A DNA stretch of 24,114 nucleotides. Origin: a virus. Every line of letters starts with the position of its first letter. Position 1 is the stretch's first letter. Positions 1 to 12,880 of the stretch are shown here, in pieces. Made by a program: the position numbers and the translations under genes. The notes under the pieces are model-generated. The model saw only the letters and a program-made list of their open reading frames with translations. It made no database searches and had not been told where the DNA came from. The DNA is taken from positions 1 through 24,114 of IMG/VR virus record IMGVR_UViG_3300035670_001222. One strand, 5' to 3'.

Positions 1-496
<496 letters not shown>

Positions 497-515: not shown

Positions 516-1382
516 TTACGATTTGTGTGAATCTAATACTTTTTGTACTGATTCTTTTACTTCTTCCCATTTAACAGTACGGATACCACCTTCAGGTAAT
601 AATTCACCATATTGTACAGGATCAGGACGACCTAATTTAATAAACGCCTCTACACGCTCAACAGATGCTGCTGATTTGTAATCAGATAACCAAATATCAT
701 CTGTTAATTTAATTGGTTTGTATGATGTATTAGTACGTTTATATACTTCATCAAAATCAAAACCTAATGTGTTACATGCTGCTAAACCATCTTTTAAAAT
801 ACCGAATTTATCTGTATCAAGATATGGAGTATAATGGTAAACATACTCACTGTCCCAGTTGCCTACTTTAAATGCTTCAAAATCTTCATCTCTAAATTCT
901 TGTCTACAATCAGGATAAATTGCATGATCACCAGCATGAATACCCATTGCAATAGCAACATCTTGTTTTTCTCCTCTAGTAGCAATTGATAATGCTACTG
1001 CTTGGATTAATGAACTGAATATTTTATTACGGTTAGGTACAACTGTTTCTTTCATGTTGTCTTGTTCGTAATGTCCTTCAGGAACATCTTGTCCACCTTC
1101 TACTAATGCTGAATTTAGTAATTCAGATAAACCATCTAATTTAATAATTTGATGTGTAACCGGGTGCCATGAATAATTTTTGTCATTATCGAATGGAGGG
1201 TGATTTGCGCTCCAAACATCATTAATGTAATCTACCAATGCGGCTGCACGTTGTAATTCTACTTTGTGTTTTTGACCATAGTCAAAACCTAATGCTGTTA
1301 CTTTATAGCCTTTAGCTAATAGGTGTAACAATAATGAACTACTGTCCATACCACCTGATAATGATAAAACTGCTTGTTTCAT
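516..1382 (-). CDS. queC: QueC-like 7-cyano-7-deazaguanine (preQ0) synthase lacking the zinc cysteines
   Basis: QueC converts 7-carboxy-7-deazaguanine to preQ0 using ATP and ammonia. This 288-aa protein has the PP-loop SGGMDS at residues 9-14, then FDYGQKHKVEL, PNRN at 116-119, and the QueC signature HAGDHAIYPDCRQEF ending at residue 163. The C-terminal part is recognisable (KRTNTSYKPI near 215-224, VERVEAF at 241-247, PDPVQYGE at 253-260). At the places where the family has its four zinc-binding cysteines this protein has Ser, Tyr or Ala (TNTSY; DYKSAAS at 234-240). Only two cysteines exist in the whole protein (159 and 203). It sits below a terminator that closes the queD-dpdA unit and is followed by an HTH gene. 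The family call is firm; activity without zinc is not established. A role in DNA modification rather than tRNA queuosine is inferred from the nearby DpdA-like gene. Confidence 0.9.
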   Translation of the reverse strand: MKQAVLSLSGGMDSSSLLLHLLAKGYKVTALGFDYGQKHKVELQRAAALVDYINDVWSANHPPFDNDKNYSWHPVTHQIIKLDGLSELLNSALVEGGQDVPEGHYEQDNMKETVVPNRNKIFSSLIQAVALSIATRGEKQDVAIAMGIHAGDHAIYPDCRQEFRDEDFEAFKVGNWDSEYVYHYTPYLDTDKFGILKDGLAACNTLGFDFDEVYKRTNTSYKPIKLTDDIWLSDYKSAASVERVEAFIKLGRPDPVQYGELLPEGGIRTVKWEEVKESVQKVLDSHKS

Positions 1383-1423
1383 TTTAAATGAATTTGTTTA
1401 TTTGGGATTGTATTTATTTATTA

Positions 1424-1447
1424 AACGCTTACTCCCGTTTAAGCGTT
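1424..1447 (-). terminator. Rho-independent terminator after the 70-aa gene
   Basis: In the minus-strand RNA, AACGCTTA (1447-1440) pairs with TAAGCGTT (1431-1424), giving an 8-bp stem with an 8-nt loop. An A/U-rich tract (TTAATAAATAAATA) follows, which is weaker than a pure U-run. The upstream arm contains the stop codon of the 70-aa gene (1439-1441). It marks the likely end of the transcription unit that begins at the thioredoxin gene. Confidence 0.7.
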
Positions 1448-1651
1448 ATTGAATAATGCTTTAATTTTGAAAAACTGATCTAGAAATGGTTTTTCATAAG
1501 TAATAATAGTACCATTCTTATAAGGAGAATGAGCAACTACTTTAGTACTACGTTTTGCTTTTACAATTTTAGAAAAAGCATATACTTGTTTGCCCAAAGC
1601 AGAACCTGCTGGTTTGCCTAGATAATCATAAAGTGAAATCATTGTTTGCAT
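1439..1651 (-). CDS. Hypothetical 70-aa protein
   Basis: I do not recognise a characterised family. The protein is 70 aa, basic (many Lys and Arg around residues 25-40), and has no predicted signal peptide or membrane segment. It begins MQTMISLYDYLGKPAG; a second in-frame ATG at codon 4 is an alternative start. The C-terminal half (TIITYEKPFLDQFFKIKALF) looks like a small alpha/beta fold. It starts 5 nt after the stop of the DpdA-like gene and ends inside a terminator hairpin, so it is the last gene of that unit. Its position suggests, but does not show, a link to DNA modification. Confidence 0.6.
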   Translation of the reverse strand: MQTMISLYDYLGKPAGSALGKQVYAFSKIVKAKRSTKVVAHSPYKNGTIITYEKPFLDQFFKIKALFNNA

Positions 1652-1656
1652 AACTT

Positions 1657-2442
1657 TTATTTTATAAATTTTTTAAATTGTTGTACGTTGAAGGTAATAT
1701 CTTCAACTTGCCCACTCAAATCTTTTTCAAAATAATACTCTAGTTTTTCTTTTGGTTTCCATGTTAAACCACTATCAGTGTATCTTTGTCCTTCAGCACC
1801 AACTAAAATAGGATTAGACGTATCTACTGATTTAACAAATGTCCAATCTTTATATGACATAAATTCTTGTGGTAATGAACATCCTAGTAAATGGTGATAA
1901 TGTGACTTTCTAATAGTATTAGATGCAACTAGGCGTCTAATAAACTCCATTCTACCATACATTGCTGCTTTTAAATGATCCATTCCTTCATATTCTTTCT
2001 GGTATGCAATGCTTGAATGGTTAAAGGCAATATGAGTGTAACCTAAATCAACTAATGTTTGATATGTTGTAATTAATTCACCCATGTCACTACCTTGACA
2101 CACAGCCATTAAATTAACTCCTTCAGGCAAATTTGGTTTATGATTAATCATCCAACTTTTAGCATTAACTAATGTTGTTGTAGCATCATTCCAAGCATCA
2201 GGAACAATAAATACATCAGGACGAACTAAATTAATTTTTTCTAATAAGTCTTCTGTGGTATGAACTACACCCTCGAAAAGACCATTATCCATGATAATGA
2301 AACGTTTATCTAAACGTGATTTTTGAAAAAATATTCTATATTGGTCATAATGATCAATTAGATGTGGTAAACAATAATCGTAATCGTTCCACTTATATGC
2401 ATGGTGCATCAATGCTAAAGGCAACTCATGACTAATCTTCAT
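1657..2442 (-). CDS. dpdA: TGT/DpdA-like 7-deazaguanine DNA transglycosylase, compact form
   Basis: The protein (261 aa) carries the landmarks of the tRNA-guanine transglycosylase superfamily. These are FIIMDNGLFEG at 48-58 (cf. DSGGFQ in TGT; Asp52 would be the base-binding or acid residue), VPDAWND at 80-86, AVCQG at 113-117 (cf. the VQGG loop), HHLLGCSLPQEF at 183-194, and FVKSVDTSNP at 202-211, where Asp207 is in the place of the catalytic nucleophile. The TGT zinc site (CxCxxC plus His) is absent. Phage DpdA relatives exchange guanine in DNA for preQ0 or a derivative, protecting against restriction. At 261 aa it is much shorter than classical TGT. It overlaps the stop of the 95-aa gene by 11 nt and lies near queD and queC, which supports a DNA-modification role. 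The superfamily call is firm; subtype and substrate are inference. Confidence 0.8.
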   Translation of the reverse strand: MKISHELPLALMHHAYKWNDYDYCLPHLIDHYDQYRIFFQKSRLDKRFIIMDNGLFEGVVHTTEDLLEKINLVRPDVFIVPDAWNDATTTLVNAKSWMINHKPNLPEGVNLMAVCQGSDMGELITTYQTLVDLGYTHIAFNHSSIAYQKEYEGMDHLKAAMYGRMEFIRRLVASNTIRKSHYHHLLGCSLPQEFMSYKDWTFVKSVDTSNPILVGAEGQRYTDSGLTWKPKEKLEYYFEKDLSGQVEDITFNVQQFKKFIK

Positions 2443-2719
2443 AATGTTCTAATTTTTTCTTTAATTTATCGATTCTAATTTGACAATACCACTTTCCTAT
2501 CCAGCTACTTGCATTTTTATAATTTTCCTCCCAGTTCCTAATTTCTTTTCGAATTGGATTATTATATTTTTCAAGTATATCGATATCGTAATAGCTGTTG
2601 TTTTCTAACATAGCCTCTTCCCAATACCCTTCAGTATAGTGGGGGATTTGTTGTTCTTGTTTTTCACGAAGAACTTTGCGACGTGCTTTTTCTAGACTTT
2701 TCAGACACTTTTTACTCAT
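2432..2719 (-). CDS. Hypothetical 95-aa charged protein between queD and dpdA
   Basis: No family is recognised. The protein is strongly charged, with a basic N-terminus (MSKKCLKSLEKARRKVLREK), a Tyr/Glu-rich middle (YTEGYWEEAM, YYDIDILEKY) and a Lys-rich end (IDKLKKKLEHYED). It looks mostly helical with no membrane segment. Its ATG overlaps the queD stop by 8 nt, and its stop overlaps the dpdA start by 11 nt, so the three genes are probably translationally coupled. This makes it a candidate partner of the 7-deazaguanine enzymes, but nothing in its sequence proves that. Confidence 0.6.
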   Translation of the reverse strand: MSKKCLKSLEKARRKVLREKQEQQIPHYTEGYWEEAMLENNSYYDIDILEKYNNPIRKEIRNWEENYKNASSWIGKWYCQIRIDKLKKKLEHYED

Positions 2720-3173
2720 ATATAGCGGTGTTTTTGCTGTGTTCCATAAATTCTACTCTTGTAACACTAACTCTACCACTAGTTTCTTCTTGAACAAATG
2801 TGTTTAATTTTTCAAAAATATATTTTGCAAATTGTTCTGCACCAACTGCTGGTAATATTCTCAGTTGGATAATACCTAGATCACTCATTGTTTTGAAACC
2901 TCCCAATGCAGGATCATCTTCAGCTATGATTGTAGTATGATCAAACATGTAGTCCATCCATTCTTTAGGATTTTTACCATCAATATTTCCTTTAGCACGT
3001 TTCATACCACCAAAATCCCAAACCCAATTACGCTCATCTAATTCACCCTCAAACCACACTCTAAATGATACTCCATAACCATGGAGAAATCTACAATGAG
3101 TACCTTCTGCTTTCCACTGACGGAATACTGTGCTGAAACCGTCAAACAACTTTGTTGATTGAAACTTTGCCAT
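2712..3173 (-). CDS. queD: QueD-like 6-carboxytetrahydropterin / 6-pyruvoyltetrahydropterin synthase
   Basis: QueD makes 6-carboxy-5,6,7,8-tetrahydropterin from dihydroneopterin triphosphate, an early step to preQ0. This 153-aa protein shows the family frame: Cys27 in THCRFLHGYG (catalytic Cys position), WDFGGMKRA at 52-60, the FDH motif (Asp78-His79), the GAEQFAKYI helix with Glu113 (pterin-binding Glu), and VEFMEHSKNTAIY at the end with Glu144. Two of the three usual zinc histidines appear changed: the first (FxAAH) region reads FSTVFRQW, and HGH reads HGY (His31, Tyr33). The ATG at 3171-3173 is one base from the upstream stop, and the gene overlaps the next one. The fold is confident, but the exact reaction is less so, because the PTPS family also includes pterin enzymes of other pathways. 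Confidence 0.82.
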   Translation of the reverse strand: MAKFQSTKLFDGFSTVFRQWKAEGTHCRFLHGYGVSFRVWFEGELDERNWVWDFGGMKRAKGNIDGKNPKEWMDYMFDHTTIIAEDDPALGGFKTMSDLGIIQLRILPAVGAEQFAKYIFEKLNTFVQEETSGRVSVTRVEFMEHSKNTAIYE

Positions 3174-3393: not shown

Positions 3394-3589
3394 TTTCTGT
3401 TTCTTCGTTATTTAATTCGTCTAATTCGGCTTGACTTACTATTTTCCAATTCTTATCATCGTCAATAATAGTATAAACTTGATCCATTATCTCTTCTAGT
3501 TCTTTATTTAGTAGAGTAACATCAATGTCTTCCTCAGTTAACTGAATTTGGATTTGTTCTGCTCTATTTAGTAATTCTATTAAGTTCAT
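3386..3589 (-). CDS. Hypothetical acidic 67-aa protein
   Basis: The protein is small, acidic and probably helical (EELNRAEQ-like heptad feel at the N-terminus, Asp/Glu-rich throughout, ending NNEETENE). No family is recognised. Its ATG overlaps the TGA of the DUF5522-like gene (ATGA), and its stop overlaps the start of the membrane-protein gene, so it is translationally coupled on both sides within the nrd-que unit. Confidence 0.55.
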   Translation of the reverse strand: MNLIELLNRAEQIQIQLTEEDIDVTLLNKELEEIMDQVYTIIDDDKNWKIVSQAELDELNNEETENE

Positions 3590-3786
3590 TTTTTCTTATT
3601 TGGAGTAAATTTAAGTAATTCTTCTGACAGAACCACTCTTCCCTTGGTATTTCTTGGTTCATAGGGGCAATGTCTGCAGTGGTCACCACAGCAACTACCT
3701 CTATTAATATGGAAGAGCGCAGTGAAAATCACGCGCTCACCTTCCACATAATAGTCAACTCCGTTTTTTAATTGTCTATCCTTCAC
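3586..3786 (-). CDS. DUF5522-like Cys-rich small protein
   Basis: This 66-aa protein has LKNGVDYYVEGERVIFTA followed by GSCCGDHCRHCPY (Cys32, 33, 37, 40), which matches my memory of the DUF5522 family, common in Bacteroidetes chromosomes. The cluster of four cysteines and a His suggests a metal or iron-sulfur site, but the family function is unknown. The chosen start is a GTG at 3784-3786 that overlaps the nrdA stop; conserved residues begin right after it and no nearer ATG exists. The gene is placed directly after nrdA, which may point to a redox or metal role around the reductase; this is inference. It is also one of the better hints about the host phylum. Confidence 0.72.
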   Translation of the reverse strand: MKDRQLKNGVDYYVEGERVIFTALFHINRGSCCGDHCRHCPYEPRNTKGRVVLSEELLKFTPNKKK

Positions 3787-5500
3787 AAGATATACATTCA
3801 GATAAACGTTGTAGGTTGTCTCCTCTCAATACTGATTCAGTACGTAAATAGTATAATGTTTTAATACCTAATTTATGTGCTTCTTTATGTACTTGGGATA
3901 TCCATTTTGGAGTATCATTTGGATCAAAACATAAATTTAATGAAATTGCTTGATCAATATATTGTTGTCTAATAGCGTTTTGTTTTACTATTTCTAACTG
4001 ATTAATTTCCTTAAATGTTAAGAATACTGATTTTTCTTCATCAGTTAAAATATAACTAGGAACATTAATTACTGATCCTTGATCTTTTAAAATTTGATCC
4101 CAAACACTATCAATATTGTATCCCTTTTTATCTAGTAATTCTTCTAGAATTTTATTTCGTTTAATGAATACGCCTTTTGCTGTTTTAAGGTTATATACAT
4201 TCGCGGGGATTGGTTCAATTGATGGTGATACTCCACCTGAAATATGAGCATTTGATACCGTTGGTGCAATTGCTAAATGGTGGGAATGTCTTAATCCAGT
4301 ACCTTTACACCATTCTGGTTCTCCATATACTTCGGCTTGATCACGAGATGCTTTTAGAGTTTCTGTTTGAATAAATTCAGATATAATTCTAGTTAATGCT
4401 GATGATTGGATGCTAGCAAATGGTAATCCTTTTGATTGCAATAATGTATGCCATCCTAAAACACCAATTCCAATTGCTCTACCTTTAGTAGCAGAACGAA
4501 CTGTGTTTTCCATAAATTTGATATTCTTAGCTCTATCAATAAATTCTTGTAATACACCTTCTAAGAACCAACATGCTACTTCTGGTAATGTCATACCATT
4601 ATCAAATTTATAGTCTTTCCATTCGTCCCAACGTGCTAAATTCAATGATGATAAACAACAAATAAATGAATGTAATTCGTCTGTGTATAATGAAATCTCA
4701 CTACAAATATTTGTCATTGATACATGAAGGTTTAATTTCTTATATCCTTCAGGATTCACATTATTCACATTATCTTCAAACATGATATAAGGTTCACCAG
4801 TTTCAAGACGTGTTTTTAATATTTCACCCCACAAACGCATAGAACGTTCATCTTTATTTTCTAATTTATCCATAAATGTGTCATCAACAACAACACATTG
4901 GTGTAAATTTAAACATTGGCGATTAACATCACCTTTTGGTCTACGGATTTGTAAGAATTCTTCAATATCAGGGTGGTTAATGCTTAGATTAACCGATGCT
5001 GCACCTCTTCTAACTGATCCTTGATTTGTAGCAAGAATAGTTGAATCATAAATTTTACACCAAGGCACTACACCTTCAGATACACCATTATCTCTAATAG
5101 ATTTACCTCTACCTCTGATACGAGATACTCCAATACCAACTCCACCACCTTGAGATGATAATCTCATTAGTTCTGAATTTGCGTCTGCAATACCCTCAAT
5201 TGAATCACCAACGTCAATACCAAAACATGAAATAGGCATTCCACGTTCAGTACCTAAATTTGACAATACTGGAGATGCTAAACATAACCAGTTTTTTACT
5301 ATTGCTTCGTAGAATATTGGTTGTAAATCTTTACGTCTTAATCTACGTGAAGATGCTTTACTTACTCTTTTAAATGCGCCAAATACATCTTCATCAGGCA
5401 TTAAATACCCTTTAGAAATCATACTTAATGCTATTTCATCCATCCAAGAAGGAAAATCTTTACCTTTAACCCAGGTACTGGTGTCTACTTGTATACTCAT
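3776..5500 (-). CDS. nrdA: Ribonucleotide reductase class I alpha subunit, compact
   Basis: NrdA reduces ribonucleoside diphosphates to deoxy forms with a radical delivered from NrdB. The ATG at 5498-5500 is preferred (574 aa). A TTG 30 nt upstream would overlap nrdB, whereas the ATG follows the nrdB stop by 14 nt. Catalytic features are visible: Cys92 in SCFG, Asn264-Cys266-Glu268 in TNICSE, Cys281/282 in the CCLSSLN motif, the radical-path pair Tyr550-Tyr551 in TLYYLRTES, and the C-terminal shuttle pair Cys569/Cys572 (CISC). The protein starts close to the catalytic barrel and lacks the N-terminal ATP cone, so dATP feedback inhibition is probably absent. It is shorter than typical NrdA/NrdE (700 or more). 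It sits with nrdB and thioredoxin in one unit. Confidence 0.93.
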   Translation of the reverse strand: MSIQVDTSTWVKGKDFPSWMDEIALSMISKGYLMPDEDVFGAFKRVSKASSRRLRRKDLQPIFYEAIVKNWLCLASPVLSNLGTERGMPISCFGIDVGDSIEGIADANSELMRLSSQGGGVGIGVSRIRGRGKSIRDNGVSEGVVPWCKIYDSTILATNQGSVRRGAASVNLSINHPDIEEFLQIRRPKGDVNRQCLNLHQCVVVDDTFMDKLENKDERSMRLWGEILKTRLETGEPYIMFEDNVNNVNPEGYKKLNLHVSMTNICSEISLYTDELHSFICCLSSLNLARWDEWKDYKFDNGMTLPEVACWFLEGVLQEFIDRAKNIKFMENTVRSATKGRAIGIGVLGWHTLLQSKGLPFASIQSSALTRIISEFIQTETLKASRDQAEVYGEPEWCKGTGLRHSHHLAIAPTVSNAHISGGVSPSIEPIPANVYNLKTAKGVFIKRNKILEELLDKKGYNIDSVWDQILKDQGSVINVPSYILTDEEKSVFLTFKEINQLEIVKQNAIRQQYIDQAISLNLCFDPNDTPKWISQVHKEAHKLGIKTLYYLRTESVLRGDNLQRLSECISCEG

Positions 5501-5514
5501 CTTATAATTTAATT

Positions 5515-6465
5515 TTAAAGGTCTGACCAATCTGCGTTTGACTTTGAATAACTAGTCACGCGTCCTGCAAAGAAATCTTGGTGGGTTTTTCCACTTGTTA
5601 AATGTCCAAACCATTCCATTTGTTTTAATAGGTTAGGATCAATATCATTAAAAATACCATTATAACCTAATTCAACCATTTTCTCATTTGCTCTTGCTTT
5701 GATAAATGTTTTTAATTGAGGAATATTTAATCCTTCAATATCTCCCATTTCAAATGCTTTATCAATAAAATCAAATTCTAATTGAACAGATAATCGACAA
5801 GCTTCTGCTACAGATGAACGCATTTCTACTGTATCTAATTCAGGTTGTTCTTCTAATAATTTTCTAAATAACCAACACCCTGCTTTTGAATGTAATGACT
5901 CATCTCTAACACTCCACTCTACAATTTGACCTGTTCCCTTCATTAAATTTCTTAATTGAAAAGACATTAATATAGCAAATGAAGAAAACAAATTAACGCC
6001 TTCAGTAAATGCTGAGAATATAGCTAATGATAATGCTTTTTCTCTAATGTTATCACCAGGTACTTCAATCAAACGATCAATTTTTGCTTTTGATGTTTCA
6101 TCTTCTAAAAATGCCTGGAAATCATCTAATCCTAATTCTTCATTTAATCGAGCATAAGCTTCAGCGTGGATGCTTTCAAAATCAGCAAACACACGAGCCA
6201 TAGCTTGGATTTCTGGTTTTGGGAACCATAATGATACTTTGGTAGACCAATAATCATTAACGTGTACTTCTGTTTGAGCGAATGATTTTAAAATATTTCC
6301 TATCAAATTCTTTTCTGAATCTGTTAGTTTTAATTTCCAATCGTTTAGATCAGAAGCTAAAGGTACTTCATCAGCTAACCAATGCACTCTATGTTGGTCT
6401 TTATAGAAGTTGAATGCTTCTTGGTATTCAAATGGTTTGTAGAAAATACGTGGTTCCGTTATCAT
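5515..6465 (-). CDS. nrdB: Ribonucleotide reductase class I beta subunit
   Basis: NrdB holds the di-iron site and tyrosyl radical that start catalysis in NrdA. The 316-aa product has all expected ligands in the right order: Glu66 (AQTEVHVNDYW), Glu97 and His100 in FESIHAEAY with radical Tyr104, Glu155 (FTEGVNLF), and Glu189 with His192 in RDESLH. The gene overlaps the thioredoxin stop by 4 nt and is followed by nrdA. The C-terminal tail (SNADWSDL) would be the part that docks on NrdA. Length is slightly short of the roughly 320-390 aa norm, with nothing essential missing. Confidence 0.95.
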   Translation of the reverse strand: MITEPRIFYKPFEYQEAFNFYKDQHRVHWLADEVPLASDLNDWKLKLTDSEKNLIGNILKSFAQTEVHVNDYWSTKVSLWFPKPEIQAMARVFADFESIHAEAYARLNEELGLDDFQAFLEDETSKAKIDRLIEVPGDNIREKALSLAIFSAFTEGVNLFSSFAILMSFQLRNLMKGTGQIVEWSVRDESLHSKAGCWLFRKLLEEQPELDTVEMRSSVAEACRLSVQLEFDFIDKAFEMGDIEGLNIPQLKTFIKARANEKMVELGYNGIFNDIDPNLLKQMEWFGHLTSGKTHQDFFAGRVTSYSKSNADWSDL

Positions 6466-11590: not shown

Positions 11591-12880
11591 TTATATTTTC
11601 TCCAAACCGTGATACGATTGGCCTTGTTTAATGGTTACTGGATATTTTAATGTATTTATTATATCCAAAATTAATTCTTTATCCTCTTCACTATAATCAA
11701 ATAAGAAGGCATCATAAGTATACAATACTAATTTTGTTTTTTTACCTTCTAACTTACTTAATATTGATTCTAATAATTTAACATTAGTTGATGTTTCTTT
11801 ACTTTGAACTACATAATTAAATAACTTTGATCGAGTCATATCAGCGTCAGGCATAAATACCTTATTTTCTGTTACTAATTGCTTCCCATATTGGTACGTA
11901 TCCCACATACCATCTGTATAAGATAATACTTTTTCAAAGAATGGTTTAGATTGATATTCACCCCATACACCACCATATAACTGTTTAAATGTTAATTCTT
12001 TAGCTTCTTGTTGTGATACACCTAACACATATCCTAGATATTCGTATGTATTTTTTTCTTTAGGAAAATCAAATCCAACCATTTCACCAATCAATCGTGG
12101 GTGATACCCCTGAAAATCAATTTCAATAAATTTATCATTTTCTGGTTTAAAACATGCACGTTCACCATCATCTTTATTCAATGCTGCAAAGTTAATGCTA
12201 TTAAATGTGTTTGATGGGCGTGAAGTTGTTGTATATAGATTATATTGAGTGTATATTCTACTGCGATTTAAATTAAATTGTGGGTTTGTTAACTTCCCAT
12301 TGTAATAATCAATAAAGCAGTTTTTATCGACCATTATGCCGTTTTTTTCAATATGGTAGAATACGTTTGATGTATGAAAATTTTGAAATTCAAATACTTT
12401 ATCTGCAGTTGAATATTGCCTAATGACAGGCCAAACCATATCAAATATAGTTTCACACATTTCATAATGTTTACTAATTGGTATTAAACAATTAACATTA
12501 GGTAATGAATAGTGTTTACTGTAATAATAGTTAATACAAGTGTTGTCTAATGATTTAATATCAACTTGTTCAATAAAATTTACATCATACAATTTATCTG
12601 CTAATTGGGGATAATAATGTAATGCTTTTTTCTTGTCTAATGTAAATAATCTATCTGTGTTGTTTAATAACCAAAATAACATTTCTGGTTTGCTTATACC
12701 AAACGATTCGTTGTGGTTTAAACACAATATATATCCCTTTTTACCATTAAATGGTCTAATATATATTAAACTTAATTCAGTAAGAGATGGATGGAAATTG
12801 TCATTAAACGGAATGAACCGAATAAAGCAATCTTCGAATGCACGAGGCAGTTGTGATGATTTCTCAATGATATAAAACAT
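11591..12880 (-). CDS. Divergent family A DNA polymerase-like protein
   Basis: The C-terminal 260 residues (of 429) match the PolA palm and fingers in order. HIEKNGIMVD occurs at 176-185. TTTSRPSNTFNSINFAAL at 217-234 fits the template-binding TGRLSS..NLQNIP motif. Motif A is IDFQGYHPRL with Asp255. Motif B is AKELTFKQLYG with Lys294, Phe298, Tyr302 and Gly303 in the canonical spacing. An Asn355/Gln359 pair matches the family's N..Q. Motif C reads TYDAFLFD, with Asp390 present but the usual HDE replaced by YDA. The first 170 residues could be a decayed 3'-5' exonuclease domain. T4 itself uses a family B polymerase, so this may be the phage replicase, a repair enzyme or an inactive relative. 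The fold call is good; activity is uncertain. Confidence 0.75.
   Translation of the reverse strand: MFYIIEKSSQLPRAFEDCFIRFIPFNDNFHPSLTELSLIYIRPFNGKKGYILCLNHNESFGISKPEMLFWLLNNTDRLFTLDKKKALHYYPQLADKLYDVNFIEQVDIKSLDNTCINYYYSKHYSLPNVNCLIPISKHYEMCETIFDMVWPVIRQYSTADKVFEFQNFHTSNVFYHIEKNGIMVDKNCFIDYYNGKLTNPQFNLNRSRIYTQYNLYTTTSRPSNTFNSINFAALNKDDGERACFKPENDKFIEIDFQGYHPRLIGEMVGFDFPKEKNTYEYLGYVLGVSQQEAKELTFKQLYGGVWGEYQSKPFFEKVLSYTDGMWDTYQYGKQLVTENKVFMPDADMTRSKLFNYVVQSKETSTNVKLLESILSKLEGKKTKLVLYTYDAFLFDYSEEDKELILDIINTLKYPVTIKQGQSYHGLEKI

Follow-up and report, generated by a model that had tools for sequence, protein, structure and literature searches.

Protection against restriction is the established role of 7-deazaguanine bases in phage DNA (PMC6884629). 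The known minimal gene set for such a system, found in the phages CAjan and Rosebush, comprises FolE, QueD, QueE, QueC and the transglycosylase DpdA and leads to dPreQ0, the DNA form of 7-cyano-7-deazaguanine (preQ0) (PMC6884629). In the Campylobacter phages CP220 and CPt10, 100% of the deoxyguanosine (dG) is replaced by dADG, the DNA form of the amide precursor 7-amido-7-deazaguanine (ADG) (PMC8306585), and Hutinet et al. 2019, who detected no DpdA in Campylobacter phages with dADG, proposed a route that does without this enzyme (PMC6884629). Here, a gene cassette is described at positions 516-3173 of the viral record IMGVR_UViG_3300035670_001222, a stretch of 24,114 bases that was analysed at its full length and is called the window in the following; the record has no further contigs. 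The cassette is in all likelihood a phage-encoded 7-deazaguanine DNA-modification system. Systems of this kind are already known; new are the size of the clade, the complete cassette without tailoring enzymes, the connection to a transglycosylase of the complete-replacement type and the altered metal sites in QueC, QueD and QueE.

The predicted transglycosylase and its gene set

At the centre of the cassette lies the gene for a protein of 261 aa, which has no meaningful match in Pfam or NCBIfam and falls in phrog_19058 (3.8e-34), a family without an assigned function that also holds proteins of CP220 and of Flavobacterium phage immuto. An AlphaFold2 (AF2) model built from 43 clade sequences has a pLDDT of 94.8 and a pTM of 0.91. 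Its best Foldseek matches in the PDB are the tRNA-guanine transglycosylase (TGT) 2pot (2.1e-7) and then the DNA preQ0 insertase DpdA 7ui4 (4.4e-7), and all of the 50 PDB fold matches listed are TGTs except 7ui4; the best named viral fold match is a protein of Cellulophaga phage phiST (8e-17). Searching the PDB by sequence, with either the single transglycosylase or its profile, yielded no useful match, so that fold comparison alone was informative. By its predicted structure the protein is a member of the TGT/DpdA fold superfamily, and base exchange in DNA is a plausible, putative activity. A first-pass annotation had read the cassette as a DpdA-type 7-deazaguanine DNA-modification set and had tied this reading to a TGT-type fold of the 261-aa protein. 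Structure prediction returned such a fold, and by the fold and the gene set this remains the best reading; the placement of QueD-like, TGT/DpdA-like and QueC-like genes at 516-3173 also proved correct by Pfam, PHROG and fold matches.

Among phage records, tblastn with the 261-aa protein finds the CP220 group of Campylobacter phages (34%) and immuto (33.5%), in which the protein is annotated as a DNA guanine transglycosylase, with weak matches in phiST and in Bacillus phages. Residues D52 and D207 are invariant in the 43 clade sequences and in eight distant relatives. Across these eight distant members the invariant residues are L25, D52, N53, D82, T90, H184, L186, G187, S205, D207 and N252, and nothing else, a set that resembles the invariant set of phage DpdA1 (D63-S64, D105, H187, G190, S204, D206) in order and motif, with D52 and D207 collinear with D63 and D206. 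The two Asp are thus predicted to form the catalytic pair, which by analogy with TGT enzymes would be general acid/base and nucleophile. The CP220-type family, here phrog_19058, presumably corresponds to the one named DpdA3, which Cui et al. 2023 reportedly defined as the type that permits complete replacement.

The family assignment lets unannotated phage proteins be recognised as likely transglycosylases. CP220 gp056 (L067:12001-12777), annotated as hypothetical, and BSTP12_038 (L070:7896-8684), annotated as NadR, both look like members of this family, and Bacillus BSTP proteins named NadR or integrase are likewise probable transglycosylases. A pattern search of bacterial genomes found no relative of the transglycosylase, hence no host could be assigned in this way.

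The genes queD, g95, dpdA, g70 and queC form a compact, co-directional operon on the minus strand from 3173 to 516 (Table 1), with overlaps of 8 nt between queD and g95 and of 11 nt between g95 and dpdA. Median ratios of non-synonymous to synonymous change (dN/dS) against relatives are 0.08 for DpdA, 0.085 for QueD and 0.25 for QueC, which shows that these are real genes under purifying selection. The corresponding values are 0.25 for g95 and 0.62 for g70, the latter indicating weak constraint, and each of the two small genes has homologues in 44 sources. One scan of viral contigs found homologues of dpdA on 64 other contigs, up to 183 kb long; QueD is present in 61 and QueC likewise in 61 of the 65 sources that result when the window is counted.

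FolE and QueE are not in the window, as the first-pass annotation had observed, and it had considered a position elsewhere in the genome, supply by the host or a bypass. The search for folE and queE which it proposed for the rest of the genome was run on relatives and points to the first of these, so that host supply or a bypass is not needed. Two relatives (L002 and L004) are collinear with the window, with 91% DNA identity over 12.5 kb that reaches window position 1, equivalent to L002:12463. In both, queE and folE come after the epimerase gene, with QueE at L002:13231-14061 and FolE at L002:14380-15054, 0.8 and 1.9 kb past the window edge. FolE was found in 14/14 large relatives and so was QueE with a phage QueE profile; the QueE of L002 matches the PHROG QueE profile at 5.1e-40. 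The full set for a preQ0/DpdA system is present in this sense, with QueD, DpdA and QueC in the window and FolE and QueE in all 14 large relatives.

The iron-sulfur motif of this QueE is CX3C-X35-C in all 49 full copies, while other phage QueEs have far shorter spacings. Searches with Pfam Radical_SAM and with the QueE of immuto missed QueE in the 14 relatives, and three Radical_SAM matches lay far from the cassette. A pathway without queE was dropped after gene-cluster mapping revealed the divergent QueE with its 35-residue insertion, which PHROG QueE profiles confirmed. Beside folE, a xanthine/guanine phosphoribosyltransferase-like gene (L002:15038-15448) was seen in 19 of 37 testable loci; by profile it was found in 8 of the 14 large relatives, and the family also occurs in immuto, phiST, CP220 and CC_R7. 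Its product could recycle to GTP the guanine freed by each exchange, an accessory idea that is not claimed here.

QueC and QueD with altered zinc sites

The QueC-like protein matches Pfam QueC with 118.1 bits against a cut-off of 22 and PHROG QueC at 2.1e-35, while its score of 110.6 bits against the NCBIfam equivalog TIGR00364 is below the cut-off of 150.3. The best fold match of its model is solved QueC (2pg3, 3bl5; 3.1e-9). According to the motif definitions of PMC13329287, the protein retains SGGxDS, YxQxHxxE, VPxRN, YPDC and the essential Tyr. The C(x)8CxxCxxC zinc motif is described as a hallmark of functional QueC, and zinc as required for function (PMC13329287). In the clade, the corresponding stretch holds zero or one Cys in 57/57 proteins, and in an alignment of 42 sequences the four zinc positions, by our own position mapping, are invariantly Ser220, Asp234, Ser237 and Ser240. 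Because the zinc motif is absent, the protein is named QueC-like and not QueC. A QueC without zinc ligands also exists in immuto, RHEph06, Pan1, PaP002 and Iggy, and the zinc Cys are present in the QueC of CP220, CAjan, Dp-1, phi38:2 and CC_R7.

A similar picture emerges for the QueD-like protein, which matches Pfam PTPS and PHROG QueD (Table 1) and is 73% identical to the QueD of immuto, with 29 bits against NCBIfam QueD, below the cut-off of 89. It belongs to an FR..(T/S)HC..LHGY subfamily in which, by alignment, the catalytic Cys, Asp-His and Glu positions are retained and two of the three zinc His are replaced by Phe and Tyr; the catalytic and zinc roles are those we take to hold from E. 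coli QueD. The same subfamily, with Phe/Tyr for the zinc His, is found in immuto, phiST, MA9V-3, RHEph06, Pan1, phi38:2, PaP002, Iggy and Mendera. The pair of zinc-less QueC and FR-type QueD seems compatible with preQ0 synthesis, because Iggy has the same types and is reported, in a paper cited in PMC11008142, to carry dPreQ0; the argument is drawn from this one phage.

A variant of the DNA-modification reading, in which the zinc-less QueC halts at the amide and ADG instead of preQ0 is inserted, must be weighed here. ADG is the QueC intermediate towards preQ0 (PMC13329287), the window clade has lost each of the four zinc Cys, and the transglycosylase relative CP220 carries dADG. However, the QueC of CP220 itself retains the four Cys, while Iggy with its zinc-less QueC is the phage reported to carry dPreQ0. 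Zinc loss therefore does not track ADG and was rejected as its general cause, which leaves the variant unlikely. The zinc-less QueC and QueD contradict textbook enzyme signatures and yet sit in intact, selected pathways, which raises the question of the role of zinc. At its most far-reaching, the interpretation would be that a clade of large Bacteroidetes phages makes preQ0 with a zinc-shed QueC (0/4 Cys) and QueD (1/3 His), together with a QueE whose iron-sulfur motif holds a loop of 35 residues, and that a short transglycosylase replaces essentially all genomic guanine. This combined picture is less likely than not; if true, zinc would be dispensable for nitrile synthesis by QueC.

Product, extent and alternative explanations

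What comes directly from the analysis is the identity of the genes, the predicted fold with its conserved catalytic positions, the operon and the selection on it, and the presence of the whole gene set in relatives. From these, we infer a product, its extent, a post-replicative action and protection. GTP would be converted by FolE, QueD, QueE and QueC to preQ0, or the amide precursor ADG would be released. The DpdA-type transglycosylase would then excise guanine from replicated phage DNA via an Asp-linked intermediate and insert the 7-deazaguanine base in its place, and the purpose would be resistance to host restriction.

To narrow the product, the optional tailoring enzymes QueF and formyltransferase were considered. 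Both were found in 0/14 large relatives, in a search that covered these two and not ArcS-type or free-standing amidotransferase genes. QueF matches in 10 of the 14 genomes were rejected as they are below the cut-off and coincide with FolE. As neither tailoring enzyme was found in the relatives and QueC has no Gat domain, the inserted base would probably stay either dPreQ0 or dADG. Gene content favours dPreQ0, whereas the transglycosylase family, through CP220, favours dADG and complete replacement. On a slight balance the base would stay dPreQ0, and dADG is a possible, less expected outcome. The enzyme clusters with its counterpart in CP220 (100% dADG), apart from the motif-specific phage DpdAs. 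Near-complete replacement is plausible on this ground, and the chances are about even that most or all guanines would be replaced.

Several points weigh against the DNA-modification reading or its details. The TM-scores of the structure matches of the 261-aa model are only about 0.57-0.66 on the query, and the profile comparison of its family with phage DpdA1 is weak (E 0.054). Identity to the CP220 protein is just 34%, which makes the transfer of product and extent uncertain. The window is only a fragment of its genome, and the QueE and FolE of this phage are presumed from relatives, and the scope of the tailoring search must be counted here as well. Finally, QueC lacks its hallmark zinc motif and QueD two of its three zinc His.

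An alternative at the level of mechanism would be a pre-replicative exchange on a guanine deoxynucleotide, after which a kinase would form the triphosphate and a polymerase would incorporate it, giving complete replacement. For the Campylobacter phages, a triphosphate route without DpdA had at one time been suggested (PMC6884629). Transglycosylases do not usually bring about complete replacement, and a thymidylate-kinase-like gene adjoins the dpdA homologue or lies within two genes of it in CP220, immuto and CC_R7, as a DNA polymerase gene lies close to it in immuto, CC_R7, BSTP12 and phiST. By contrast, nothing matching such a kinase was found within about 10 kb of dpdA in the window clade, and TGT-family enzymes act on polymers. 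The Campylobacter study is also said to have seen no dADG phosphates in nucleotide pools, and this route is improbable for the window.

The genes could also raise queuosine in host or phage tRNA, with the 261-aa protein acting as a tRNA transglycosylase or outside the pathway. QueC, QueD, QueE and FolE are common to queuosine synthesis, the best fold matches include TGT structures, and some phages carry these genes without DpdA, for which a queuosine boost has been proposed (PMC6884629). Bacterial TGT, however, inserts preQ1, and QueF is missing from 14/14 relatives; the matched TGT chains exceed the 261-aa protein in length by about 100 aa, and in CP220, which has a protein of the same family, the DNA is fully modified. 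A role in tRNA is therefore very improbable. Lastly, the QueC-like protein could modify proteins in the manner of QatC or Cap9, within a defence or signalling system. Its fold and sequence matches do include Cap9, and protein modification is known for the QueC fold (PMC13329287). But the YxQxHxxE, VPxRN, YPDC signature that QatC does not have is intact, the conserved neighbours showed no CBASS or Qat partner, and QueD, QueE, FolE and DpdA travel with the QueC-like gene, so that this alternative is hardly credible.

Genome context and comparison with known systems

The window also encodes a sheath, a tail tube, a UvsX-like recombinase and a single-stranded DNA-binding protein (SSB). These matches, together with Flavobacterium phage immuto as the closest isolate, bear out the first-pass description of a T4-like Bacteroidetes phage; from the relationship to immuto alone, a Bacteroidetes host is a reasonable assumption. 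The same annotation had the cassette directly following the reductase genes and linked precursor supply to modification. NrdB and NrdA do precede the cassette, but three small open reading frames (ORFs) lie between, and the proposed link is weak as most relatives have a B12-dependent reductase at that place. The class I pair NrdA and NrdB is present in the window (3776-6465) and in some relatives, and is exchanged in most others for a single B12-dependent class II reductase, for example at L008:6791-8641 (TIGR02505, 1.1e-79). At the other end of the cassette, the epimerase gene at the window edge is probably outside the modification pathway itself.

Table 1. Features of the cassette and its downstream flank in the window.
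Feature	Position	Strand	Evidence
QueD-like 6-carboxytetrahydropterin synthase, 153 aa	2712..3173	-	Pfam PTPS 6.1e-15, phrog_2389 1.4e-39, alignment
g95, small protein, 95 aa, no assigned function, between queD and dpdA	2432..2719	-	ORF
DpdA-type DNA-guanine transglycosylase (predicted), 261 aa	1657..2442	-	AF2 model, Foldseek, PHROG, invariant residues
g70, small protein, 70 aa, no assigned function, between dpdA and queC	1439..1651	-	ORF
QueC-like 7-cyano-7-deazaguanine synthase, 288 aa	516..1382	-	Pfam QueC 4.9e-34, alignments, fold match
g78, small basic protein, no assigned function, downstream of queC, clade-conserved	260..496	-	ORF; homologues in 40 sources
Sugar-nucleotide epimerase gene start, truncated at window edge	1..230	-	Pfam Epimerase 4.6e-11; gene order in L002, L004; collinearity

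Further genes were noted in the surroundings. A DUF5522 protein of 66 aa (3586-3786, minus strand) with a CCGDHCRHC motif (1.3e-17) stands beside the cassette in 57 sources, and GIY-YIG homing-endonuclease genes (TIGR01453, 5.1e-24) are inserted within or around the cassette in several relatives, for example at L049:15660-16448. A 429-aa protein (11591-12880, minus strand) has no Pfam match, shows DNA polymerase A-like motifs and by its profile weakly matches the Klenow fragment (0.009); it may be a small polymerase of divergent sequence, and a second PolA-like frame, of 441 aa, occurs in immuto.

Among described phages, immuto (vB_FspM_immuto, Immutovirus) is the closest isolate overall, with 57% identity in the sheath and 52% in the helicase. 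Its QueC (59%) is zinc-less as well, its QueD (73%) is of the same subfamily and its DpdA of the same family (33%). Unlike the 14 large window relatives, in which neither was found, immuto encodes QueF and a formyltransferase close to dpdA; its queC is separated from the rest of the cluster. The transglycosylase of phiST has a very similar predicted fold (Foldseek 8e-17) and its QueD is 71% identical, but the transglycosylase itself is only 21% identical and in a different PHROG, and no QueC was found within the 25 kb examined. The DpdA of the bacterial Dpd island (7ui4) is the second-best PDB fold match of the 261-aa model, with a length of 413 aa against 261 aa.

In gene arrangement, the dPreQ0 phages of the Queuovirinae, Pseudomonas phage Iggy and E. 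coli phage CAjan, are similar in having FolE, QueD, QueE, QueC and DpdA in one cluster, and Iggy shares the zinc-less QueC and FR-type QueD, whereas the QueC and QueD of CAjan retain their zinc ligands. The DpdA of both is a different, longer protein (306-312 aa) that inserts at a motif, which for Iggy is GA according to the title of a paper cited in PMC11008142. The Campylobacter phages CP220 and CPt10 (Firehammervirus) differ in that QueC and QueD retain zinc ligands, the genes do not form a cluster, dpdA is followed by a kinase gene and the host is another one. With the window they share the transglycosylase family (34%, phrog_19058), and the genome of CP220 encodes QueD, QueE and QueC but no formyltransferase. 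In the literature read, very few phages are established to replace their guanine completely, and the only ones known to do so are CP220 and CPt10; the window clade, with its 64 contigs from one scan, is a candidate for a large second group.

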